A stretch of DNA of 40,372 nucleotides. Source: a virus. Position numbers and translations under genes: made by a program. Under the pieces are notes generated by a model, which searched no databases, was not told the origin of the DNA, and saw only the letters and a program-made list of their open reading frames with translations. Of the stretch, positions 2,846 to 39,548 are shown one piece after another. Where the stretch lies: IMG/VR virus record IMGVR_UViG_3300046517_001909, positions 1 to 40,372 of that record; one strand, written 5' to 3'. How positions within the stretch are numbered: position 1 is the stretch's first letter; every line of letters begins with the position of its first letter.

Positions 2846-3021
2846 TTCCGCGTCTCCTCCAGCACCGCCATAGCTCGCCACAGCGCAACTTGGTCTTTGT
2901 GCTCCATGAACCCGCCGATACGGCGCACGTGCGCCACCAGCGAGCTCAGCGCGTCGTGGAGGGCGTCGCGCTGCGCCACGGCGAGGTCGAGCGCGGCGCG
3001 GGCGTGGGATTCGTCGGTCAC
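2842..3021 (-). CDS. Small helical protein
   Basis: 59 residues from GTG 3021, overlapping the methylase stop (GTGA); its own stop overlaps the GTG of the Ala/Asp-tract gene. Mostly one or two amphipathic helices (ALDLAVAQRDALHDALSSLV...). No domain recognised; likely a coiled-coil or dimeric accessory protein. Confidence 0.65.
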
Positions 3022-3755
3022 CGCGCCCCCCACATCGACGTCTGCGCCGGGTTCGGCTTAGCCTCGTCGCCGCGCAGGCGCCGGCACGCGATCTCGTAGT
3101 ACTCGGCGTTCATCTCCCAGCCGACGAAGCGGCGGCCGAGCTGGCGGCAGGCGACGCCGGTCGTCCCGGAGCCGGCGAACGGGTCGAGCACGAGATCGCC
3201 GGGGTCGGCGAAGTCGGCGACGAGGTCGAGCATGAGGGAGAGTGGCTTGGTCGTCGGGTGCGGCTGAGGACCATCTGTTCTCGTATGCGTGTACACGTTA
3301 CGTTTGCCGCCGCCATTCCAACGCTTTTTCCCTTTGGCGTGCGCGATTACAAACGCCTCCGCGCCCTGAGCTGGTCGATCTCCGGTGAACTGCGGCGTAG
3401 CGTCAGGTTTGACCCAAATTCCGCATCGCACGTAATCAAGCCCGGCGGAAAGCGTGGCCTTGCGCCACATGTCGATGTTCTCCAGATCGGTGAACGCGAC
3501 GATCCAGCGCTTCGCGACACGAGCAAATGCCCACATCGCGTCGCGTGCAGTCGCATCCGTGATGGCGGCGAAATCGATCCGGTCGTAAACCGTCGGCCTG
3601 CCGATTGCCTTCGCGACCCACGTGCGTTCGTGAGTGGATTGACTGTACGGCGGATCGCAAATCACGTGGTCCACGCTCTTGTCAGCCAACGTCCGCATGC
3701 CCTCGAGGCAGTCTCCGAGGTGGAGCGTCCAGTCGGGGCCGGAGGCCAGGGTCAC
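3018..3755 (-). CDS. DNA methyltransferase, beta class (N4-C or N6-A)
   Basis: 245 residues from GTG 3755, with AAGGGAGATCT as ribosome site and a GTGA overlap upstream. Catalytic motif IV DPPY is at residues 34-37 and the AdoMet-binding motif FAGSGTTG at 193-200. Catalytic motif before AdoMet motif is the beta-class order of amino-methyltransferases. HPTTKPLSLMLDLV before the AdoMet motif is typical. No restriction enzyme gene is next to it, so it is an orphan phage methylase, probably protecting phage DNA from host restriction or marking it for regulation. Specificity cannot be read from sequence. Confidence 0.92.
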   Translation of the reverse strand: MTLASGPDWTLHLGDCLEGMRTLADKSVDHVICDPPYSQSTHERTWVAKAIGRPTVYDRIDFAAITDATARDAMWAFARVAKRWIVAFTDLENIDMWRKATLSAGLDYVRCGIWVKPDATPQFTGDRPAQGAEAFVIAHAKGKKRWNGGGKRNVYTHTRTDGPQPHPTTKPLSLMLDLVADFADPGDLVLDPFAGSGTTGVACRQLGRRFVGWEMNAEYYEIACRRLRGDEAKPNPAQTSMWGAR

Positions 3756-4258
3756 AGATCTCCCTTGGTCATGCGGTCAGCCTTGCGCGCCGCCTTTGCG
3801 TTCAGCGTGTCGCGCAGTGCCCGCACCGTTCCCGGCACGTCGTGATAGCCGCACTTGGTCAAGAGCTTCTGCAGCTCGAGCTCACCTTCGGGATTGCTCG
3901 ACGCGCGCAGCTTGCGAAGCGCATCGGCCATCGTGTCGACCTGGTTGCGGTTTCGCTTGTCGTACATCGCAGCTAGCAACTTGCGGCAGCCATCGCAGAC
4001 CATCACCTCGCTCGTGAGAATCGGTTGCAGGTTGAACGGCGCGAGATAGTTGGCGTTGAACGCGGCCAGGCGATCCACGCAAATCTGGGGCACATCGACG
4101 AGTGCGCGGCACGAGGCATTCCGACACACCCATTGCGCGACGGTCGGGTCAGGTTTCCAGTCGTACACGCCCTGACCGCGCGTTCGAGTGCGGTCATGCT
4201 CACTGGCCTTGCGGAGCTGCAAGTCGGCGAGGACTTCGGGATCGAGTTCATCGCTCAT
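3752..4258 (-). CDS. Putative zinc-binding protein
   Basis: 168 residues from ATG 4258 (ATGA overlap with the replication gene). Cysteines pair as WVCRNASCRALV and VMVCDGCRKLLAAMYDKR, a split zinc-ribbon arrangement; the C-terminal half is helical and basic. It sits between the replication initiator and the methylase, so a helper role in replication is possible (inference). No named family recognised. Confidence 0.7.
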   Translation of the reverse strand: MSDELDPEVLADLQLRKASEHDRTRTRGQGVYDWKPDPTVAQWVCRNASCRALVDVPQICVDRLAAFNANYLAPFNLQPILTSEVMVCDGCRKLLAAMYDKRNRNQVDTMADALRKLRASSNPEGELELQKLLTKCGYHDVPGTVRALRDTLNAKAARKADRMTKGDL

Positions 4259-5214
4259 AACAGCGGAATGTTCCTAATCTCTGTGAGCGGATTCGGGCGT
4301 GCGTCGGGCAGTCGGTTCGCCCACGCCATCGCGGGATCGCGGTACTTTTCGAAGAAATTTGTTTTGGCAAACAGCGTCGCGGGCTGGAGATACGGCCGCA
4401 TGTCTTTCTCGCCGTCGCGAGGTTCGTATTTCCAACGCTTGACCTCGGCGCAGTAGCCGATAACGGCTCGGATCTCTTCCTCGGTGGCGCCGTCGGCGAC
4501 GAGCGATAAGATGGCCTTTGCGTGCGCAATGCCGCCGTTCCGGTATTGCGTGCCGTTGTGTGCGGTGAGCTTCTCGAGAACGCGGCTGACGAGCTCGAGC
4601 TCGCCCGACGCAAACGCTGGCGGCTTTGGCTTGCGCGCTTGCCGCTCCTGGTTCGCCGCGGCAGCGTTCGCGTCGACCTTGAGCTTGAACTCTTCGAGCT
4701 GAGGGGACCCCGAACTGACACTCGTCGCCACCCTGGCGACATCTGTGTTCTTATTCTGATCGTGATTTACAGGAACAGGAGAAGGAGAAGGAGAAGGAAC
4801 AGGAGAAGAGAAGAGATTTGGGTTCGCGCGTGCTTCATGATTTTCGGAAGTGCCGTTGAACTGATGCTTGGTATTGTTCCGCCGTGATTCTCCACTCTTG
4901 AGTCCACCTAGGCGCGCGGACTCAGCTTTACGTAGTAGGTACGCAATGCGTTCCCTTGCACCGCGTACGAGCACACGTTTAGACGCGCAACGTGACGCGA
5001 GACCGCACTCGATCATGCACGCGGCGAGACCTTCGTGTGCACCAGCGATGTCGATCAGGCGCTCCGAAATGATGTAGGCGCGCTGGTCGTAGCAGACCGC
5101 GAACACGTCCAGGAGCCGGCCGCGCGCCTCGTACTTGCTCCATCCGCATGCCGCGGCGAGCTCGAGCACGCGCGGGTCGCGAAGGAACATGTCGTCGATA
5201 GCCATGTTCGCCAT
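4255..5214 (-). CDS. Phage replication initiator / replisome organiser
   Basis: 319 residues from ATG 5214, preceded by GAGGACTAG. The N-terminal 100 residues (DDMFLRDPRVLELAAACGWS...) look like a winged-helix DNA-binding domain; residues 136-149 are a Ser/Pro linker; the C-terminus contains the signature YLQPATLFAKTNFFEKY (275-291) of the conserved phage C-terminal domain Phg_2220_C, found in phage replication proteins of the DnaD/O-protein type. Such proteins bind the origin and load the host helicase. As no phage helicase or polymerase is seen, replication probably depends on the host machinery. Confidence 0.85.
   Translation of the reverse strand: MANMAIDDMFLRDPRVLELAAACGWSKYEARGRLLDVFAVCYDQRAYIISERLIDIAGAHEGLAACMIECGLASRCASKRVLVRGARERIAYLLRKAESARLGGLKSGESRRNNTKHQFNGTSENHEARANPNLFSSPVPSPSPSPVPVNHDQNKNTDVARVATSVSSGSPQLEEFKLKVDANAAAANQERQARKPKPPAFASGELELVSRVLEKLTAHNGTQYRNGGIAHAKAILSLVADGATEEEIRAVIGYCAEVKRWKYEPRDGEKDMRPYLQPATLFAKTNFFEKYRDPAMAWANRLPDARPNPLTEIRNIPLL
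4759..4830. other. Candidate replication origin inside the initiator gene
   Basis: A purine-rich, relatively AT-rich stretch encoding the Ser/Pro linker. It has two direct copies of GGAACAGGAGAAG (4772-4784 and 4796-4808, 24 bp apart) separated by GGAGAA units, next to ATTCTGATCGTGATTTAC. Phage lambda has its origin iterons in the middle of gene O; the same layout is proposed here by analogy only. Confidence 0.35.
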
Positions 5215-6294: not shown

Positions 6295-6512
6295 GCCAGC
6301 TTTTCCGCGTCATCGAGGATCGCTTCGGTCAAGCGGGCGACGTTGACGCCGAGGGCTTTAGCAAGAGGCCTGAGGCGGTCCGCTCGTGGGTTGTTGTCGC
6401 CAGCCTCCCAGCCCGCGACCGATGACTGCGGAACGCCGAGTCTTTTCGCCAGATCCTTCTGCTGCATCCTTCGCTTCTGACGCAGCGTGCGGATCGTTTC
6501 TCCTAGACTCAC
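6291..6512 (-). CDS. CI/Cro-type HTH repressor
   Basis: 73 residues from GTG 6512: SLGETIRTLRQKRRMQQKDL then AKRLGVPQSSVAGWEAGDNN, a standard XRE helix-turn-helix, with a short C-terminal helix and no cleavable peptidase domain. The GTG start is preferred over the TTG at 6548 because that TTG lies in a promoter-like -35 box (TTGACT) and the predicted transcription start falls on the GTG, as in the leaderless lambda cI mRNA. It probably maintains lysogeny by binding the ATCGG-N5-CCGAW sites described below. First gene of the leftward operon. Confidence 0.85.
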   Translation of the reverse strand: MSLGETIRTLRQKRRMQQKDLAKRLGVPQSSVAGWEAGDNNPRADRLRPLAKALGVNVARLTEAILDDAEKLA

Positions 6513-6548
6513 GTCGGTATAATTCGGATACTCCGATTCGAAAGTCAA
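6512..6548 (-). promoter_or_regulatory. Leftward promoter of the repressor operon
   Basis: Minus-strand -35 TTGACT (6548-6543), 18-bp spacer, -10 AATTAT (6524-6519); the start would be close to 6512, the G of the repressor GTG, giving a leaderless mRNA. Operator A lies in the spacer, so the repressor should control its own gene. Prediction only. Confidence 0.5.
6523..6537. promoter_or_regulatory. Operator A, ATCGG-N5-CCGAA type
   Basis: Plus strand TTCGG-ATACT-CCGAT; reverse complement ATCGG-AGTAT-CCGAA. Inverted-repeat half-sites separated by five bases, inside the leftward promoter. Centre 33 bp from operator B, about three helical turns. Confidence 0.6.
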
Positions 6549-6555
6549 GAGACTT

Positions 6556-6570
6556 ACCGGAGCAACCGAA
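6556..6570. promoter_or_regulatory. Operator B, degenerate copy
   Basis: ACCGG-AGCAA-CCGAA, same geometry as operators A, C and D with one half-site mismatch. It lies between the two divergent regulators, upstream of the rightward HTH gene. Confidence 0.45.
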
Positions 6571-6593
6571 TTACGGCGGCGTTATCGATAGCC

Positions 6594-6998
6594 GTGGCAG
6601 CGAGGCGCGGCGAGACGGGGATCGGCTCCACGGGGGAGCGGAAGCGCGGCGGCTATGTGGCCGATCCGACGTGGCAAGAGGCCGTCAGAAAAAAGCTTGC
6701 CGCCGACGGCGTTACGGAGAAGGCGTTCGCCAAGAAGGTCGGCTGCGCGCAGTCGACCCTCCATGACACGCTGCATGTGGCGTACAAGTCGTCGCACCTG
6801 ATCCCGAAGATCAACAAGTTGCTTAAGTGGGAGCTGCCGCAGAAGCTGCCCCGTGAGAGCTCGCCGCCGCTTCCGTCCGCGGACGCCATCGAAGCCGCGA
6901 TGATGTTCGATGCGCTGCCCGAGGACCTCCGCAGAGCGAAGATCGCCGAGCTCCGCGCGACGTACGCGCAGTTCGCCGCCAAGAAGGCGAACGATTAG
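6594..6998 (+). CDS. HTH regulator, Cro-like position
   Basis: 134 residues from GTG 6594; GTG 6657 (113 residues, VADPTWQEAVRKKLA) is an equally possible start because neither has a strong ribosome site. The core VRKKLAADGVTEKAFAKKVG then CAQSTLHDTLHVAYKS is an XRE-like helix-turn-helix; the tail (EAAMMFDALPEDLRRAKIAEL) is helical. First gene of the rightward operon, divergent from the repressor, so it may be a Cro- or CII-like switch protein. Confidence 0.7.
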   Translation: MAARRGETGIGSTGERKRGGYVADPTWQEAVRKKLAADGVTEKAFAKKVGCAQSTLHDTLHVAYKSSHLIPKINKLLKWELPQKLPRESSPPLPSADAIEAAMMFDALPEDLRRAKIAELRATYAQFAAKKAND

Positions 6999-7085
6999 GC
7001 TCCAATCCGGAAATTGTTGCAGTTCTCGTCGGAGGGTCTTGCTAGAACATTCATAGGACGTAGCCGAACCAAGAGGCGATCCCCT

Positions 7086-7244
7086 ATGAAGAGCGACGAT
7101 AGAGCGAGCAAGGCCGAGTTCGTGTGGTTGATGCTGGAGGTGGCGCGACTCGACCGCGAGACCTACCGGCGCATCCGGGCCGATGGCTGGGAGAAGGCGG
7201 CGATATCTAAATTCTTCGACGGCAAATCGGAAATGCCGAACTAA
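7086..7244 (+). CDS. Small protein after the HTH regulator
   Basis: 52 residues from ATG 7086 with AAGAGG nine bases upstream; a TTG at 7014 in frame is rejected for lack of a ribosome site. Sequence DRASKAEFVWLMLEVARLDR is helical; the segment WEKAAISKFFDGKSEMPN resembles the recognition end of a short HTH. Operator C overlaps its 3' end. Function unknown. Confidence 0.6.
   Translation: MKSDDRASKAEFVWLMLEVARLDRETYRRIRADGWEKAAISKFFDGKSEMPN
7226..7240. promoter_or_regulatory. Operator C, ATCGG-N5-CCGAA
   Basis: ATCGG-AAATG-CCGAA, a clean copy of the operator motif at the 3' end of the preceding gene and just upstream of the TTGACT promoter. Centre is 41 bp (about four helical turns) from operator D. 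Confidence 0.55.
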
Positions 7245-7248
7245 GAAC

Positions 7249-7285
7249 TTGACTGATCCGGCGTGAATCGGTATCTCCGATAGCA
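7249..7285 (+). promoter_or_regulatory. Rightward promoter with ATG at the predicted start
   Basis: -35 TTGACT (7249-7254), 17-bp spacer, -10 TATCTC (7272-7277). The predicted start, seven to eight bases on, coincides with ATG 7285, and there is no ribosome site before that ATG, so the mRNA may be leaderless. Operator D covers the -10 region. The -10 match is weak, so this rests on geometry and on the parallel with the repressor promoter. Confidence 0.45.
7267..7281. promoter_or_regulatory. Operator D, perfect ATCGG-N5-CCGAT
   Basis: ATCGG-TATCT-CCGAT: perfectly inverted half-sites with five-base spacing, overlapping the -10 of the rightward promoter. Binding here should block transcription of the small-gene and recombination operon. 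Confidence 0.6.
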
Positions 7286-8047: not shown

Positions 8048-8280
8048 TCGATCGAGCCGAATGCGTCGAGTGCGGACGTGAAAGCGTCAGCGATGACGGC
8101 TGTTGGAAGCCGGGCGAAGTGTGCCTATTCGGGAATCTATTCGCGTGCAACATGTCGTGCGCTGAGGCATGGGCTCGTAAGAACGCAGCCCCTGGGTACC
8201 GCCCCGGCGAGCCGAACTTCTTCGCCGATGTCGTAGTTCCAGAGCATGCGGCGCCGGATAGAGCGGTGGTGACGTCGTGA
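8044..8280 (+). CDS. Small Cys-rich protein
   Basis: 78 residues from GTG 8044 (GTGA overlap). Four cysteines in ECVECGRESVSDDGCWKPGEVC plus ACNMSC form a likely zinc knuckle or treble-clef-like fold, as in small phage Zn-finger proteins. Function unknown. Confidence 0.65.
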   Translation: MIDRAECVECGRESVSDDGCWKPGEVCLFGNLFACNMSCAEAWARKNAAPGYRPGEPNFFADVVVPEHAAPDRAVVTS

Positions 8281-8453
8281 GCGACGACGTCAAATCCTTG
8301 TTCGCGGCGCATCTCGCCGAGATTCGACGCCTCGACGCGAAGCTCGCCGCGGTCAAGAAGATCGTTTTCGACTTCGTGCTGAACGATCACGACGACACGG
8401 ATGCCGCGAGGCGCATTGCGATCGATGACCTTACCGCCGAGTTGTCCTCGTGA
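8277..8453 (+). CDS. Small helical protein of 58 residues
   Basis: Read directly from the sequence: GTG 8277 (GTGA overlap with the previous stop) to TGA 8451-8453. It begins VSDDVKSLFAAHLAEIRRLD and ends IDDLTAELSS; amphipathic helices, probably a coiled-coil dimer. It fills what would otherwise be a gap in the overlapping gene train, which supports it. Confidence 0.65.
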   Translation: MSDDVKSLFAAHLAEIRRLDAKLAAVKKIVFDFVLNDHDDTDAARRIAIDDLTAELSS

Positions 8454-8632
8454 TGTCCCTCATGCTCATCCTCTCCTGGCTCTCCTGCCTGCTGCTCGGC
8501 GCCGTTCTCGAGCGCACCGTCGAGATCCTGTGGTGGCCGACGTGGCGAGCGCCGAAGGTGCCGCGCGTCGACGTCGTGAGCGAGGCGCTGCTGAGGAAGC
8601 GGACGAAGCAGTGGAAGGCGGAAAGGCGATGA
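8453..8632 (+). CDS. Small membrane protein
   Basis: 59 residues from ATG 8453 (tgATG, one-base overlap; GTG 8450 would add one residue). One transmembrane helix at the N-terminus (SLMLILSWLSCLLLGAVLE), then a basic cytoplasmic tail. Could affect the host envelope or superinfection; unknown. Confidence 0.65.
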   Translation: MSLMLILSWLSCLLLGAVLERTVEILWWPTWRAPKVPRVDVVSEALLRKRTKQWKAERR

Positions 8633-8886
8633 GGTTCTCGGGTCGCGGTGATATCTACGTTGGTCGCGTCGTCTACTCGTTGACGCTCGACATCGGCAAC
8701 TCGCTCGCCGAGATCGCCGCGCGCGACGCACGCATGAAGTCGCAGCGCGAGTGGTCGCGCATCCGCCGCGAGCGCAATCGCGCCAACGGCGACTGTATCA
8801 ACGAGACGCTGGACGACACGCACGGCAAGGCGACGCACGGCGTGCGCTGCTCGAAGTGCCACGAGGCGCATCGGAGGTCGCGGTGA
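8629..8886 (+). CDS. Small hypothetical protein
   Basis: 85 residues from ATG 8629 (ATGA overlap). N-terminal beta strands (RFSGRGDIYVGRVVYSLTL), then a basic helix and a C-terminal CSKCHEAHRR motif. CxxCH can be a heme or zinc site, but there is no signal peptide, so zinc is more likely. Confidence 0.6.
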   Translation: MRFSGRGDIYVGRVVYSLTLDIGNSLAEIAARDARMKSQREWSRIRRERNRANGDCINETLDDTHGKATHGVRCSKCHEAHRRSR

Positions 8887-12268: not shown

Positions 12269-12498
12269 CGCTCGACGACTTGCCGCCGGACGACTTGCCG
12301 CCGGACCTTCGCGCGATGCAGCTCCTGTTGACAGTCAGTCCGCGCGCTGCGCTGGCTGCAATCGGATGGGTTCGCGCTCGAATCGAGAGCGAGGCCAAGT
12401 CGGCGGCTCATATGGGGCGAGCGATCTATGCCGCTGCTACTCTTGTGGCCAGATACGGCTGGCCGCTGCGCCCGACGGACGTGCTGGTGTCGCCGTGA
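12265..12498 (+). CDS. Small hypothetical protein
   Basis: 77 residues from GTG 12265 (GTGA overlap). Begins with a tandem DLPPDDLPPD repeat from a duplicated 15-bp unit, followed by helices (LRAMQLLLTVSPRAALAAIG). An 11-codon reading frame (12495-12530) then bridges to the excisionase gene and may allow translational re-initiation. Confidence 0.6.
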   Translation: MTLDDLPPDDLPPDLRAMQLLLTVSPRAALAAIGWVRARIESEAKSAAHMGRAIYAAATLVARYGWPLRPTDVLVSP

Positions 12499-12536
12499 CG
12501 CTCGCCGCGAAGGAGCCCGGCGATGGGTGACGAGAC

Positions 12537-12872
12537 GTGAAGTACATCTCGCCCGAGCAGATCGCCGAGCACCTCGGCGTGTCGCGTGCGACGGCCTACC
12601 GGATCGCGGCGGCGTGCCTACACGTCCGCATCGGTCGGCTCGTGCGCGTCCCCGAAGATGCGCTTTCGCGTTACCTTGCGCAGCGGCTCGAGCGATGGGA
12701 CGAATCTATCAGCGGCGCAGCGGCGGCACGTACTACGGCTACTGGACGGACGTTCGCGGCCGGCACCATCGGAAGTCGCTCAAGACGCGTGACGCCGCCG
12801 TCGCAAGGTCTCGGCTCCGGCAGCTCGAGCTGGTATCGACCGAACCGACGGCGCGGGCGCGGCACACGTTGA
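12537..12872 (+). CDS. xis: Excisionase-like HTH protein
   Basis: 111 residues from GTG 12537. The first 55 residues (KYISPEQIAEHLGVSRATAY, then RIAAACLHVRIGRLVRVPED) are the winged HTH_17 fold of phage and plasmid excisionases. From about residue 54 the sequence is low-complexity Ser/Arg/Gly and overlaps the integrase gene in another frame for 178 bases. Excisionases are usually 60-80 residues, so the tail is probably read-through after loss of an earlier stop. It would bend attachment-site DNA and promote prophage excision. Confidence 0.75.
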   Translation: MKYISPEQIAEHLGVSRATAYRIAAACLHVRIGRLVRVPEDALSRYLAQRLERWDESISGAAAARTTATGRTFAAGTIGSRSRRVTPPSQGLGSGSSSWYRPNRRRGRGTR

Positions 12873-13927
12873 GCGCGGCGATCACGCACCTGCTCGAAGT
12901 CGTCGAGCGCGGCAACGCTGGGGCGACGTGGGGCGCGTACCGCCAGAAGGGCGAGAACCTCGTCGACGTGCTCGGCGACGTCGACATCAGCGAGCTCGGA
13001 CGTGACGCATTTCTCGAGTACGTGCGCCGGCGCAAGAGCGAGAACGCATCGGACTCGACCGTCCACAAGGAGCTCGTCGTGGCACGCCGCGCGTTCGCCG
13101 AGGCGCGAGATCGCGGCCTGTGGTCGGGCGATCCGCGCGCCGTCGTGCCGACCGTTCGCGTGCGTTACCGGCCGCGGCGCGTGTGGCTCACGGCGAAGCA
13201 AGCCGATGCGCTCCTGGCCGAGCTCGCCGGCGATCGGCGGCTGTGGGCGGCGCTTGCATGCTGGGGCGGCTTGTGCCTCGGCGAGATCGAGCGGCTCGAG
13301 TGGGAGCACGTCGACCTAAAGCACGAGCGGATCCGCGTACCCGGCACCAAGCGCGAGGCGAGGCTCCGAACGGTGCCGATGGCGCCGCTGCTCGTGCGCC
13401 TGCTGACCGCCGCGAAGAAGACGGCCGCCGCCGCGAAGGTCGTACGTCGCTGGGGAAGCGTGCGCCGCGATCTCGGAGCGGCGATCGATCGCGCAAACCG
13501 TCGCGCACGCGAGCTCGCCGCGAAGCTCAAGCGTAAGGCGCCGGCCGACATGCCGCGCGTAACGCCGAATGACCTGCGCCGTACCTACGCGAGCTGGATG
13601 AAGCAGCGCGGGATGGACAGCTTCACGGTCGCGCGACTGCTCGGCCACAGCTCGAGCAAGATGGTCGAGCTCGTCTACGGCCAGCTCGACGACGCCACGT
13701 TCGCGCGCGCCGTCGCGTCCCTGCCGAGGTCCGCCACGCAACCGGCGGTTGAGAAACGGGTGAGCAAGACGAGGTATCACTCAGGGACACCAATGAGACG
13801 ACGGTCGCGAGCTCGTCGTCGCAATCGTCGTCGAGAAATGGTGCCCAGGGTCGGAATTGAACCAACGACACGCGGATTTTCAGTCCGAGTTTTCCCGTGT
13901 ATTCTCGACGGAGAACGCCATGGATGA
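12695..13927 (+). CDS. int: Tyrosine-type integrase with altered catalytic residues
   Basis: 410 residues from ATG 12695 (MGRIYQRRSGGTYYGYWTDV, an AP2-like arm-binding N-terminus). Core-binding helices follow, then the catalytic domain. The usual first Arg in the 'TGLRxSE' box reads GGLCLGE (C194), and the first His of the 'HxLR' box is N292 (NDLR), while R295, H318 (LLGHSS) and Y328 (VYGQL) are present. The gene end runs through the tRNA-Phe-like attP core, so the last 30 residues (including VPRVGIEPTTRG) are translated tRNA sequence. It should recombine phage DNA into tRNA-Phe; the substitutions raise doubt about activity. Confidence 0.88.
   Translation: MGRIYQRRSGGTYYGYWTDVRGRHHRKSLKTRDAAVARSRLRQLELVSTEPTARARHTLSAAITHLLEVVERGNAGATWGAYRQKGENLVDVLGDVDISELGRDAFLEYVRRRKSENASDSTVHKELVVARRAFAEARDRGLWSGDPRAVVPTVRVRYRPRRVWLTAKQADALLAELAGDRRLWAALACWGGLCLGEIERLEWEHVDLKHERIRVPGTKREARLRTVPMAPLLVRLLTAAKKTAAAAKVVRRWGSVRRDLGAAIDRANRRARELAAKLKRKAPADMPRVTPNDLRRTYASWMKQRGMDSFTVARLLGHSSSKMVELVYGQLDDATFARAVASLPRSATQPAVEKRVSKTRYHSGTPMRRRSRARRRNRRREMVPRVGIEPTTRGFSVRVFPCILDGERHG
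13839..13887 (-). other. attP: attP core: 3' half of tRNA-Phe (GAA)
   Basis: Read on the minus strand the 49 bases give the anticodon loop CTGAAAA (anticodon GAA), the 3' anticodon strand, a 5-base variable loop, a fully paired T arm (GTTGG-TTCAATT-CCGAC), the acceptor 3' strand CCTGGGC, discriminator A and CCA. The 5' half of a tRNA is absent. A CCA-ended 3' tRNA half inside or beside an integrase gene is the usual attP of phages that integrate into tRNA genes. Confidence 0.85.
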
Positions 13928-17004: not shown

Positions 17005-17441
17005 GGCACCGCCACCCCGAGCGCCTTGAGCGCCCCGCTGAGAATCACCGCGGCCTGCAGCATCGCGGAGATGCTCTGATCGGTGTTGACGACCGCAGCC
17101 GCCGCGATCGCTCGGTACGTGATCGACATGGCGTCAACCACCTTCTGGCGCGCGTCGTAGTACTCGGCGAACGCCTTCTCCGCGCTGGCGCGGTCGGTTG
17201 CCTTGTCCACGATCGCCTTCTGGTGCGCTTCGTCGAACGCAACGAACGTCGCGCGAGCAACGTCGGTCGCCGCGAACGTGGTCGCGATCGTCTTCTGGCG
17301 GGCCGAGGCGGAACAGGCGACGAGGAGGGCGAGCAGCAGCGCGAGCGGAGGGCGTAGGAGTCGAACCCGGACCTTTCGGCCTTCTCGTTCTCGAGACGAG
17401 CGCCGAACCACTTCGGCCTCACCCTCCAAATAGGAGGTCAC
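17001..17441 (-). CDS. Lipoprotein, spanin-like candidate
   Basis: 146 residues from GTG 17441, overlapping the holin stop (GTGA); GTG 17411 (136 residues, with GGAGG eleven bases before it) is an alternative. A basic stretch (RKVRVRLLRPP) precedes a hydrophobic segment ending in the lipobox LLVAC (C43), so the mature protein would be an outer-membrane lipoprotein. The rest is helical (KAFAEYYDARQKVVDAMSIT) with a hydrophobic C-terminus (AAVILSGALKALGVAV) that could be a second membrane anchor. Next to the holin this suggests an outer-membrane or unimolecular spanin (inference). The 5' part of the gene carries a tRNA-Ser-like sequence on the same strand. Confidence 0.65.
   Translation of the reverse strand: MTSYLEGEAEVVRRSSREREGRKVRVRLLRPPLALLLALLVACSASARQKTIATTFAATDVARATFVAFDEAHQKAIVDKATDRASAEKAFAEYYDARQKVVDAMSITYRAIAAAAVVNTDQSISAMLQAAVILSGALKALGVAVP
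17346..17427 (-). tRNA. tRNA-Ser (CGA)-like sequence inside a CDS
   Basis: 82 bases: acceptor GGAGGGT pairs with GCCCTCC; D arm GCC...GGC with AGTGGTT loop; anticodon stem CTCGT/ACGAG with loop CTCGAGA (anticodon CGA); long variable arm GGCC-GAAA-GGTC as in tRNA-Ser; B-box-like GGTTCGACTCC; discriminator G, typical of Ser. The T stem is poor (CCGGG against CCTAC), so it may be degenerate. No CCA is encoded. It lies within the 5' end of the lipoprotein gene on the same strand. Confidence 0.6.
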
Positions 17442-36282: not shown

Positions 36283-37890
36283 ATGAAGCGCCGCCCCTTC
36301 ACGCCGGCTGAGATTGCGATTGTCGACAGTCGCATCCGCGCGTCAACACACAAGAAGGCGCAAGATTTCATCTTTGACCCGGCGCGTTGGATCTCGCTGC
36401 TCGCCAATCGCGGCGCCGGCAAGACGTTCAACAAACTGTGCCGAATCATCCGCGCAATGCTGCGCGGCGATCCGACGACCGGACGCGGCGCGAACTGCCT
36501 CTACGTCGCCAAGAACCGCGAGCAGGCCCGCGGCATCATGTGGGGCGACGCGAAGGAGCTCATCTACCGGCTCGGCTTCGACGAGATGGCGAAGTTCGAC
36601 GAGGTTCGCTCCGAGCTCACACTCGCGAACGGCTCGTGGCTCAAGCTCCTCGGCTTCGACGAGCGCGACGAGATCGAGAAGCCACGAGGCAAGAGCTGGC
36701 ACGAAGTGGACGTCGACGAGTCCGGCTCTGCTCGAGCGGACCTGCTGTCCCGGTTCCGCCGCGAGGTCATCGCCCCTCGCCTCCTCGGCTCGTTCGTGCT
36801 CGGCGGCACGCCTGGCTATCTGCTCGAAGGCGAGTTCTACGACGCGACGCGTCCCGGCTCCGAGCTGCACCGCCCCTACGATCGCCGTGACGAGGAATGG
36901 CCGGACGGATGGGTCTGGTCGTCGCACTCGATCTCGACGAAGGACGGACTCGACGCCGGCATCGCCGCGATCGCGACCATTCACGAGATCCAGCTCGCCG
37001 ATAAGGCGATCGAGGGATATAGCGACCAGAACCCAAAGTGGCTCCGCGAGGGGATGGGCCAGTGGGCGAAGGATGACTCGACGAGCGTCTACGCGTTCCG
37101 ATCGCACGACGACGAAGGCCGCGAGTTCAACCAGTGGACGCCGATTGTCGCCGCGACCGATTCGACGCGCTGGGCTCGCCTGCCGCCGGGTTGGGATCCG
37201 AAGACGTGGAGCTACGCGATTGCGATGGACATGGGATGGAAAGACGCCTTCTCGCTCGAGGCGTTCGCGTACTCGTACAAAGATCCGTCCCGCACGATGT
37301 GGCACATTGGCGAGGTCTACAAGACGAAGCTACCCACCAAGGCGGTCGCAACGATCTTGATCGGCGAGGGGCTCGACATCAACAAACCCGGCGGCATCAT
37401 CGGCGAGCTCGGCTGGCCTGACTTCTTGGTCGCCGACTGCGCCGGCGCCGGCGAGCGCATCGAGATCGATCTAAAGACCGAGTACGGCATCATCCTGAAG
37501 GCCGTCGACAAGCACCCGAAGTACAAAGACCCCGCGATCGAGATCGTCAACGCTGACATGTTCGAGGGGCGCTTCAAGATCTTGAAGGACTCGAACCTCG
37601 CGAAGGAGCTCGTCGGCCTGCAGTGGGTGATGGACGCGAACGGCAAGCGCCTCGAGAACCCCAAGCAGCCGAATCACGCGACGGACGCGATGCTCTACTT
37701 CCGCGTCTCGGTCTCCGCGCTCCTGCCGGCGTTCGCTCAGCCTCAGCCGAAGGAGACGCCGACGACATCGGAGCCCCAACTCGCGAGGTCGGCGCCGAAG
37801 CCGAAGCTCGAAGACGACGGTTGGCAGTCCGAGGCGGATGGATGGGTATCCGTCGACGACATGGAAGGCACGACCGACGGAGCTTGGTAG
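36283..37890 (+). CDS. terL: Terminase large subunit
   Basis: 535 residues from ATG 36283. Walker A ANRGAGKT at 41-48 (a variant P-loop), Walker B VDVDE at 142-146, coupling motif GGTPGY at 174-179, and the nuclease start YAIAMDMGW with D316, then FLVADCAGAGERI. Typical phage DNA-packaging motor: ATPase then RNase H-like nuclease. The small terminase subunit was not identified with certainty. The last 148 bases overlap a convergent HNH-like gene. Confidence 0.93.
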   Translation: MKRRPFTPAEIAIVDSRIRASTHKKAQDFIFDPARWISLLANRGAGKTFNKLCRIIRAMLRGDPTTGRGANCLYVAKNREQARGIMWGDAKELIYRLGFDEMAKFDEVRSELTLANGSWLKLLGFDERDEIEKPRGKSWHEVDVDESGSARADLLSRFRREVIAPRLLGSFVLGGTPGYLLEGEFYDATRPGSELHRPYDRRDEEWPDGWVWSSHSISTKDGLDAGIAAIATIHEIQLADKAIEGYSDQNPKWLREGMGQWAKDDSTSVYAFRSHDDEGREFNQWTPIVAATDSTRWARLPPGWDPKTWSYAIAMDMGWKDAFSLEAFAYSYKDPSRTMWHIGEVYKTKLPTKAVATILIGEGLDINKPGGIIGELGWPDFLVADCAGAGERIEIDLKTEYGIILKAVDKHPKYKDPAIEIVNADMFEGRFKILKDSNLAKELVGLQWVMDANGKRLENPKQPNHATDAMLYFRVSVSALLPAFAQPQPKETPTTSEPQLARSAPKPKLEDDGWQSEADGWVSVDDMEGTTDGAW

Positions 37891-39471: not shown

Positions 39472-39475
39472 GCGG

Positions 39476-39548
39476 CTCCGAGGGCACGGCTCGAACGTGC
39501 GACATCCTGGTTAACAGCCAGGCGCTCTACCAACTGAGCTACCTCGAA
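39476..39548 (-). tRNA. tRNA-Asn (GTT)
   Basis: 73 bases. Acceptor TTCGAGG pairs with CCTCGGA (one G-U), D arm GCTC...GAGC with AGTTGGTA loop, anticodon stem CCTGG/CCAGG with loop CTGTTAA (anticodon GTT), variable ATGTC, T arm GCACG-TTCGAGC-CGTGC, discriminator G. No CCA encoded. The first pair is T-A, unusual. All arms are intact, so it should be functional and supply Asn-AAC decoding during infection. Confidence 0.92.

Follow-up and report, generated by a model that had tools for sequence, protein, structure and literature searches.

Two operator pairs of a putative lysogeny switch in an uncultured temperate phage group

Divergent regulator genes and their surroundings

The window, meaning the whole stretch of DNA that was analysed, is the 40,372-bp virus record IMGVR_UViG_3300046517_001909 (GC 66%), the genome of an uncultured temperate phage infecting bacteria. 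It carries a tyrosine integrase (Pfam Phage_integrase 1.4e-16), the mark of a temperate phage, together with portal-like, major-head-protein-like, Sak4-like annealing protein and exonuclease genes. Among annotated phages, the best terminase matches are Pelagibacter phages at only 27–28% identity, and the nearer relatives are all uncultured contigs. No terminase relative was found in genome_contigs, and therefore no host is assigned. Two phage-borne tRNA genes were noted on the minus strand, tRNA-Ser(CGA) at 17345–17427 and tRNA-Asn(GTT) at 39474–39548, the latter distant from the integrase.

The region of interest is built around two divergent helix-turn-helix (HTH) genes, P0001 on the minus strand and P0002 on the plus strand (Table 1). 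P0001 retrieved only distant HTH proteins from genome_contigs and viral_contigs. P0002 combines a Cro/CI-type HTH with a helical C-terminal segment: residues 24–86 of a low-confidence model resemble P22 c2, 434 and related HTHs at a modest Z of ~6, and long HTH proteins from other phages match it by profile (E 0.003). Nothing reached E ≤ 0.001 in Foldseek, nor was P0002 matched among Pfam and PDB sequences. A LexA/S24-type C-terminal peptidase domain was found in neither protein, P0001 being HTH only and the C-terminal part of P0002 being too short for one. Between P0002 and the second operator pair lies a 52-aa ORF whose codon-position-3 GC of 0.81 is coding-like.

P0001 heads a leftward run in which it overlaps the end of the winged-HTH gene P0004 and is followed, in the same direction, by a replication-type gene; in a more distant relative (L015), translations on this side read, by eye, as DnaD-like and DnaC-like. 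An N6/N4 DNA methyltransferase gene (3018–3755, minus strand) was observed farther along this replication-side run.

Table 1 Coordinates of the regulators, candidate operators and associated features (positions in the window unless another contig is named)
Feature	Coordinates	Strand	Description
DnaD/replication-initiation-like gene	4255–5214	−	Phg_2220_C 1.5e-7; phrog_428, replication initiation protein; in the leftward run of P0001
P0004	6007–6294	−	95-aa winged-HTH protein; AbiEi_4 6.7e-6
P0001	6291–6512	−	73-aa single-domain XRE/HTH_3 protein; Pfam HTH_3 3e-16; best PDB match P22 c2, 3.6e-6
Promoter-like element of P0001	6519–6548	−	TTGACT-18-AATTAT
Operator 1	6523–6537		TTCGGATACTCCGAT; exact WTCGG-N5-CCGAW; top matrix score
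Operator 2	6556–6570		ACCGGAGCAACCGAA; weak, one half-site mismatch
P0002	6594–6998	+	up to 134 aa; start GTG 6594 or 6657; phrog_1468 4e-5
52-aa ORF	7086–7244	+	
Operator 3	7226–7240		ATCGGAAATGCCGAA; exact match; overlaps 3' end of the 52-aa ORF
Promoter-like element ahead of P0003	7249–7277	+	TTGACT-17-TATCTC
Operator 4	7267–7281		ATCGGTATCTCCGAT; exact match
P0003	7285–7485	+	66 aa; first gene of the rightward early operon
SSB-like gene	9062	+	rightward early operon
Sak4-like gene	9512	+	rightward early operon
Exonuclease gene	9988	+	rightward early operon
Tyrosine integrase gene	12428–13927	+	rightward early operon
Terminase gene	36283–37890		
G003 longer HTH protein	L013 7535–7960	−	C-terminal segment duplicated in the 60-aa ORF
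G003 60-aa ORF	L013 7322–7504	−	
Motif copies in L103	536–550, 572–586, 818–832		ATCGG-N5-CCGAW

Four palindromic sites in two pairs

An earlier note on this DNA had described four palindromes of the type ATCGG-N5-CCGAW beginning at 6523, 6556, 7226 and 7267. Each is present at its position, and the start-to-start spacings are the stated 33 bp (operators 1 and 2) and 41 bp (operators 3 and 4), or 3.1 and 3.9 helical turns of 10.5 bp. The earlier note had seen no further copies by eye. Exact WTCGG-N5-CCGAW occurs three times in the 40,372-bp contig, every time in this region, and a reversed-pattern control occurs nowhere in it. The exact operator strings had no match in the papers searched.

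The suggestion that the sites had merely arisen by chance, GC-rich DNA giving short palindromes of which four landed near an HTH gene, draws on the looser counts. With one mismatch allowed, the whole-contig search put forward in the earlier note returned 15 matches against 9.1 ± 3.6 in shuffles, a number reached by 8 of 100 shuffles, so that what stood was the confinement of the exact motif to this region and not a significant contig-wide enrichment of the loose motif. The core TCGG-N5-CCGA is found five times where 2.9 are expected. Significance based on the loose motif count was dropped. In an unbiased palindrome scan, short palindromes were also seen to group in threes by chance in DNA this rich in GC, and site count alone is therefore weak proof. 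Against an accidental origin stand the limitation of the exact sites to two promoter regions and a leave-one-out analysis, in which a 19-bp matrix was built with each site omitted in turn and 40,354 positions were ranked: the sites at 6523, 6556, 7226 and 7267 came out at ranks 1, 3, 1 and 1. In the matrix of all four, they score 24.3, 22.0, 20.8 and 16.9 (listed by size) versus 10.3 for the next best position, a gap that is partly by construction with all four sites inside the matrix. Taken with the comparative evidence below, we regard chance as barely credible.

Two of the copies fall within promoter-like elements, in agreement with the earlier note. Operator 1 sits within the spacer of the minus-strand element of P0001, of which one was found versus 0.2 expected in shuffles, with its centre 18 bp ahead of the GTG. 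Operator 4 overlaps a -10-like element directly ahead of ATG 7285, its centre 11 bp before the start codon; the rightward element here was read by eye and stays under the promoter-scan threshold. Transcription is predicted to start at about the GTG of P0001 and at about ATG 7285 of P0003, and we therefore infer that both mRNAs would be leaderless. The lambda cI mRNA from PRM is leaderless. No convincing rightward promoter was found for P0002, the leftward divergent promoter being the only one recognisable.

Homologous positions in other phages

One relative, IMGVR_UViG_3300019886_000143 (39,334 bp; G003), has a 55% identical terminase and most structural genes in the same order, and is the only relative to reach the immunity region, which L007, L008, L014 and L015 do not. 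Its homologous place contains a P0001 homologue (64 aa, 36% identical over 61 aa, E 5e-10), a second HTH protein on the opposite strand, giving the same divergent arrangement, a 60-aa ORF and a small gene. Apart from G003 itself, neither P0002 nor its G003 counterpart has relatives in phage records or viral_contigs. An AlphaFold model of the G003 protein was low-confidence, had no clean HTH and was set aside.

At both homologous places G003 has palindromes of another sequence, GTATCAG-N3-CTGATAC. At the operator 1 place, GTATCAGGGTCTGATAC is centred 17 bp before the start codon of the P0001 homologue (18 bp in the window); at the operator 4 place, GTATCATTACCTGATAC is centred 12 bp before that of the small gene (11 bp in the window). 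A third, weaker site, GTATCAGTTCGTGCGAC, occupies the operator 3 place exactly 41 bp from GTATCATTACCTGATAC, the very spacing of the window, and operator 2 has as its counterpart only a half-site, GTGATAC, ~32 bp on. With up to three mismatches, this motif has four matches in 15.3 kb versus 0.17 expected in shuffles, an excess partly by construction as the motif was picked from that region; just one other place in that genome matches at this threshold. When a matrix was built from the two good G003 sites, the best remaining position in three genome pieces was the 41-bp partner. No exact copy of the window motif turned up in the relatives searched, G003 included, as expected if specificity has switched.

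The recognition helices differ as well. In G003 they read TRMTVWRLE and ERATAFRLK, so that both divergent HTH proteins share R.T.[WF]RL, and the P0001 helix, PQSSVAGWE, departs from TRMTVWRLE of its homologue. In the window, P0002 has AQSTLHDTL, and only the initial Q-S is common to it and P0001. The residues shared in helix 3 are clear in G003 and weak in the window, and are no more than an indirect pointer to both regulators reading the same operators, with opposite preference, as a CI/Cro pair would. Geometry kept with sequence replaced is the pattern that the operators of heteroimmune relatives should present, and therefore points to operators of a lysogeny switch with changed specificity. 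The comparison with related phages thus came out in favour of the earlier note's candidate repressor/operator set, with its promoter-like context and a paired 41-bp spacing kept in the relative. Homologous positions and identical spacing under another sequence also speak against chance.

The same comparison bears on whether some other phage or host factor binds the sites, such as the AbiEi-like winged-HTH protein P0004 or integration host factor. P0004 is a protein of DNA-binding type encoded in the same run, yet the G003 operator changed together with the recognition helices of both HTH proteins, and a host factor would not account for related phages differing in operator sequence. Palindromes about this long are typical targets of HTH_3 proteins. 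We consider binding by such another factor quite improbable.

G003 offers one further feature. Over 47 aa, its 60-aa ORF matches the C-terminus of the adjoining upstream HTH protein at 43% identity (E 1e-10; 0 of 2000 shuffles), and a C-terminal duplication in an adjoining ORF is what would be expected of an interaction domain, a point for the longer HTH protein as repressor. By analogy with SinI/SinR, where a small protein is homologous to the repressor C-terminus, the G003 ORF could be a SinI-like anti-repressor. The 52-aa ORF of the window is its positional equivalent; it shares no detectable similarity in sequence with either P0002 or the 60-aa ORF, leaving a SinI-like relation unsupported there. 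In a wider scenario, which we hold to be rather unlikely, the small ORF would be a duplicate of the repressor C-terminus that inactivates the repressor through mixed oligomers in place of RecA-driven cleavage, while operators and both HTH proteins switch specificity together and the layout is kept. If this were true, the immunity module of the phage group would carry a built-in repressor antagonist.

Viral contigs were also scanned for two copies of the window motif ~30–43 bp apart, yielding at least 120 loci. Among the matches listed, an HTH ORF lies within 100 bp in 10 of 32 low-GC loci, the class least prone to chance matches, versus 1.1 expected; the ten include near-identical phages and are not ten independent events. 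High-GC paired-motif loci among the matches listed have no HTH nearby and are probably chance. Several low-GC loci share a layout of a long HTH gene, two sites 34–38 bp apart and a divergent short HTH gene, and several of them also have a third site ~245 bp farther along, close to where the short gene ends. In L103 the three copies start at 536, 572 and 818, and L041, L051, L055, L094, L108, L110, L128 and L152 are similar. The short HTH gene of L103 leads an early gene run in which an AAA-type protein reads, by eye, as Sak4-like. Given these shared layouts, the same operator core appears to serve CI/Cro-type pairs elsewhere, the short HTH protein appearing to stand in the Cro position in these low-GC phages.

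Roles of the two regulators and known systems

The earlier note had taken the 73-aa XRE protein P0001 as the repressor and likely binder of the sites, overlooking the divergent second HTH protein P0002; that assignment was not supported in the form given. The presence of P0002 makes the layout that of a CI/Cro pair. By sequence and position, repeated operators of one sequence family overlap the divergent promoter region, and a second group (7226, 7267) lies at another early promoter, before ATG 7285. The four sites are very probably operators of a switch, and the full reading, in which they form the two operator pairs of a temperate-phage lysogeny switch with the roles of P0002 and P0001 given below, is likely.

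For those roles we lean towards maintenance repression by P0002, with P0001 as the Cro-like protein opposing it at the same sites. The lambda order (OL, small genes, cI, OR, cro, replication) favours this assignment. P0002 and the 52-aa ORF lie between the operator pairs, which puts P0002 in the CI position, while the second pair is on the promoter of the rightward recombination/integration operon; P0001, at the head of the leftward genes including the replication initiator, has the Cro position of lambda-like maps. The converse, with P0001 as a maintenance repressor autoregulated at 6523 and P0002 as a Cro-like lytic protein heading the rightward operon, seems doubtful to us. In its favour, P0001 outscores P0002 against known repressor HTHs, P22 c2 being its best PDB match, and operator 6523 overlaps its own promoter. 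The lack of a convincing rightward promoter for P0002 also counts against the favoured roles. In G003, moreover, a convergent lipoprotein-like gene lies tail-to-tail with the P0001 homologue, ahead of the genes farther left and in place of directly adjoining replication-side genes, which weakens the Cro argument for P0001. On the other side, P0001 at 73 aa (64 aa for the G003 homologue) is an HTH and nothing more, and in the window it runs into the winged-HTH and replication-type genes. The short HTH gene heads the early run in other phages with the same operator core, and P0002 is followed at once, in the same direction, by the second promoter under operator control, an arrangement most readily understood with P0002 expressed in the lysogen.

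Two side observations concern the relative: the lipoprotein-like gene (L013 ~8238–8660, minus strand) is moron-like and, at a guess, myxobacterial-host in style, and an ORF at reverse-strand coordinates 9452–10120 of L013 encodes more than 50 arginines in a row, probably through expansion of a trinucleotide repeat.

With P0002 as repressor, the switch would operate as follows. HTH dimers would bind the palindromes of ~15–17 bp, the pair 6523/6556 between the divergent HTH genes acting like lambda OR and the pair 7226/7267, 0.7 kb off and ahead of the rightward recombination/integration operon, acting like lambda OL. In a lysogen, occupation of 6523 would block the leftward promoter (P0001, then the replication genes) and occupation of 7267 the rightward one. 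Their weaker partners on the upstream side, ~3 and ~4 turns of the helix away, may assist through cooperative contacts, for which the spacing fits.

The arrangement resembles lambda, 434 and P22 in having one operator group between divergent HTH genes and another before a recombination/integration operon, and in pairing HTH_3-type proteins with palindromes of ~15–17 bp; as in lambda, the two groups flank the longer HTH gene together with a small gene. Lambda CI and Cro also start the recognition helix with Q-S and read A-T-C at half-site positions 2–4, and the ATC of the window half-site coincides with positions 2–4 of lambda's TATCACCG. By analogy, the Q-S helix start and the half-site xATCGG form a suggestive parallel to lambda CI/Cro. 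Unlike lambda, the window has two sites per group instead of three, spaced 33–41 bp instead of ~20–25 bp, and no peptidase-type C-terminal domain was found in either of its HTH proteins; the lambda groups are 2.4 kb apart.

In TP901-1, the distal operator OD goes with the short mor gene; the distal pair of the window, by contrast, lies beyond the longer HTH gene. L103, with the same core motif as the window, is laid out more like TP901-1, its third copy recalling OD. TP901-1 transcribes CI and MOR divergently, a long and a short regulator as in the window, and has three CI operators, OR, OL and OD (PMC7250872), which are single where the window has two pairs. The immB region of N15/phiKO2 (CB, Cro, OR1-3, OL1-2) has some of its operators between cB and cro and the rest, two OL sites, elsewhere, and its repressor lacks self-cleavage residues (PMC4997575). 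The window likewise splits a small operator set over two places, the second with two sites; N15/phiKO2 differs in its five 16-bp T-A-N10-T-A sites, with OL upstream of repA instead of a recombination operon, and the sequences are unrelated.

The mechanism is of a known kind: paired operators of a CI/Cro-type lysogeny switch, which lambda and N15/phiKO2 (PMC4997575) also have in two groups and to which TP901-1 (PMC7250872) is comparable. What is new is the phage group, an uncultured temperate one without close counterparts among annotated phages, along with its operator sequence and a clear-cut natural case of operator replacement with conserved geometry. Recognition helices and operator sequence have changed between the two phages with spacing and promoter positions kept, making the pair usable to test how superinfection-immunity specificity evolves.
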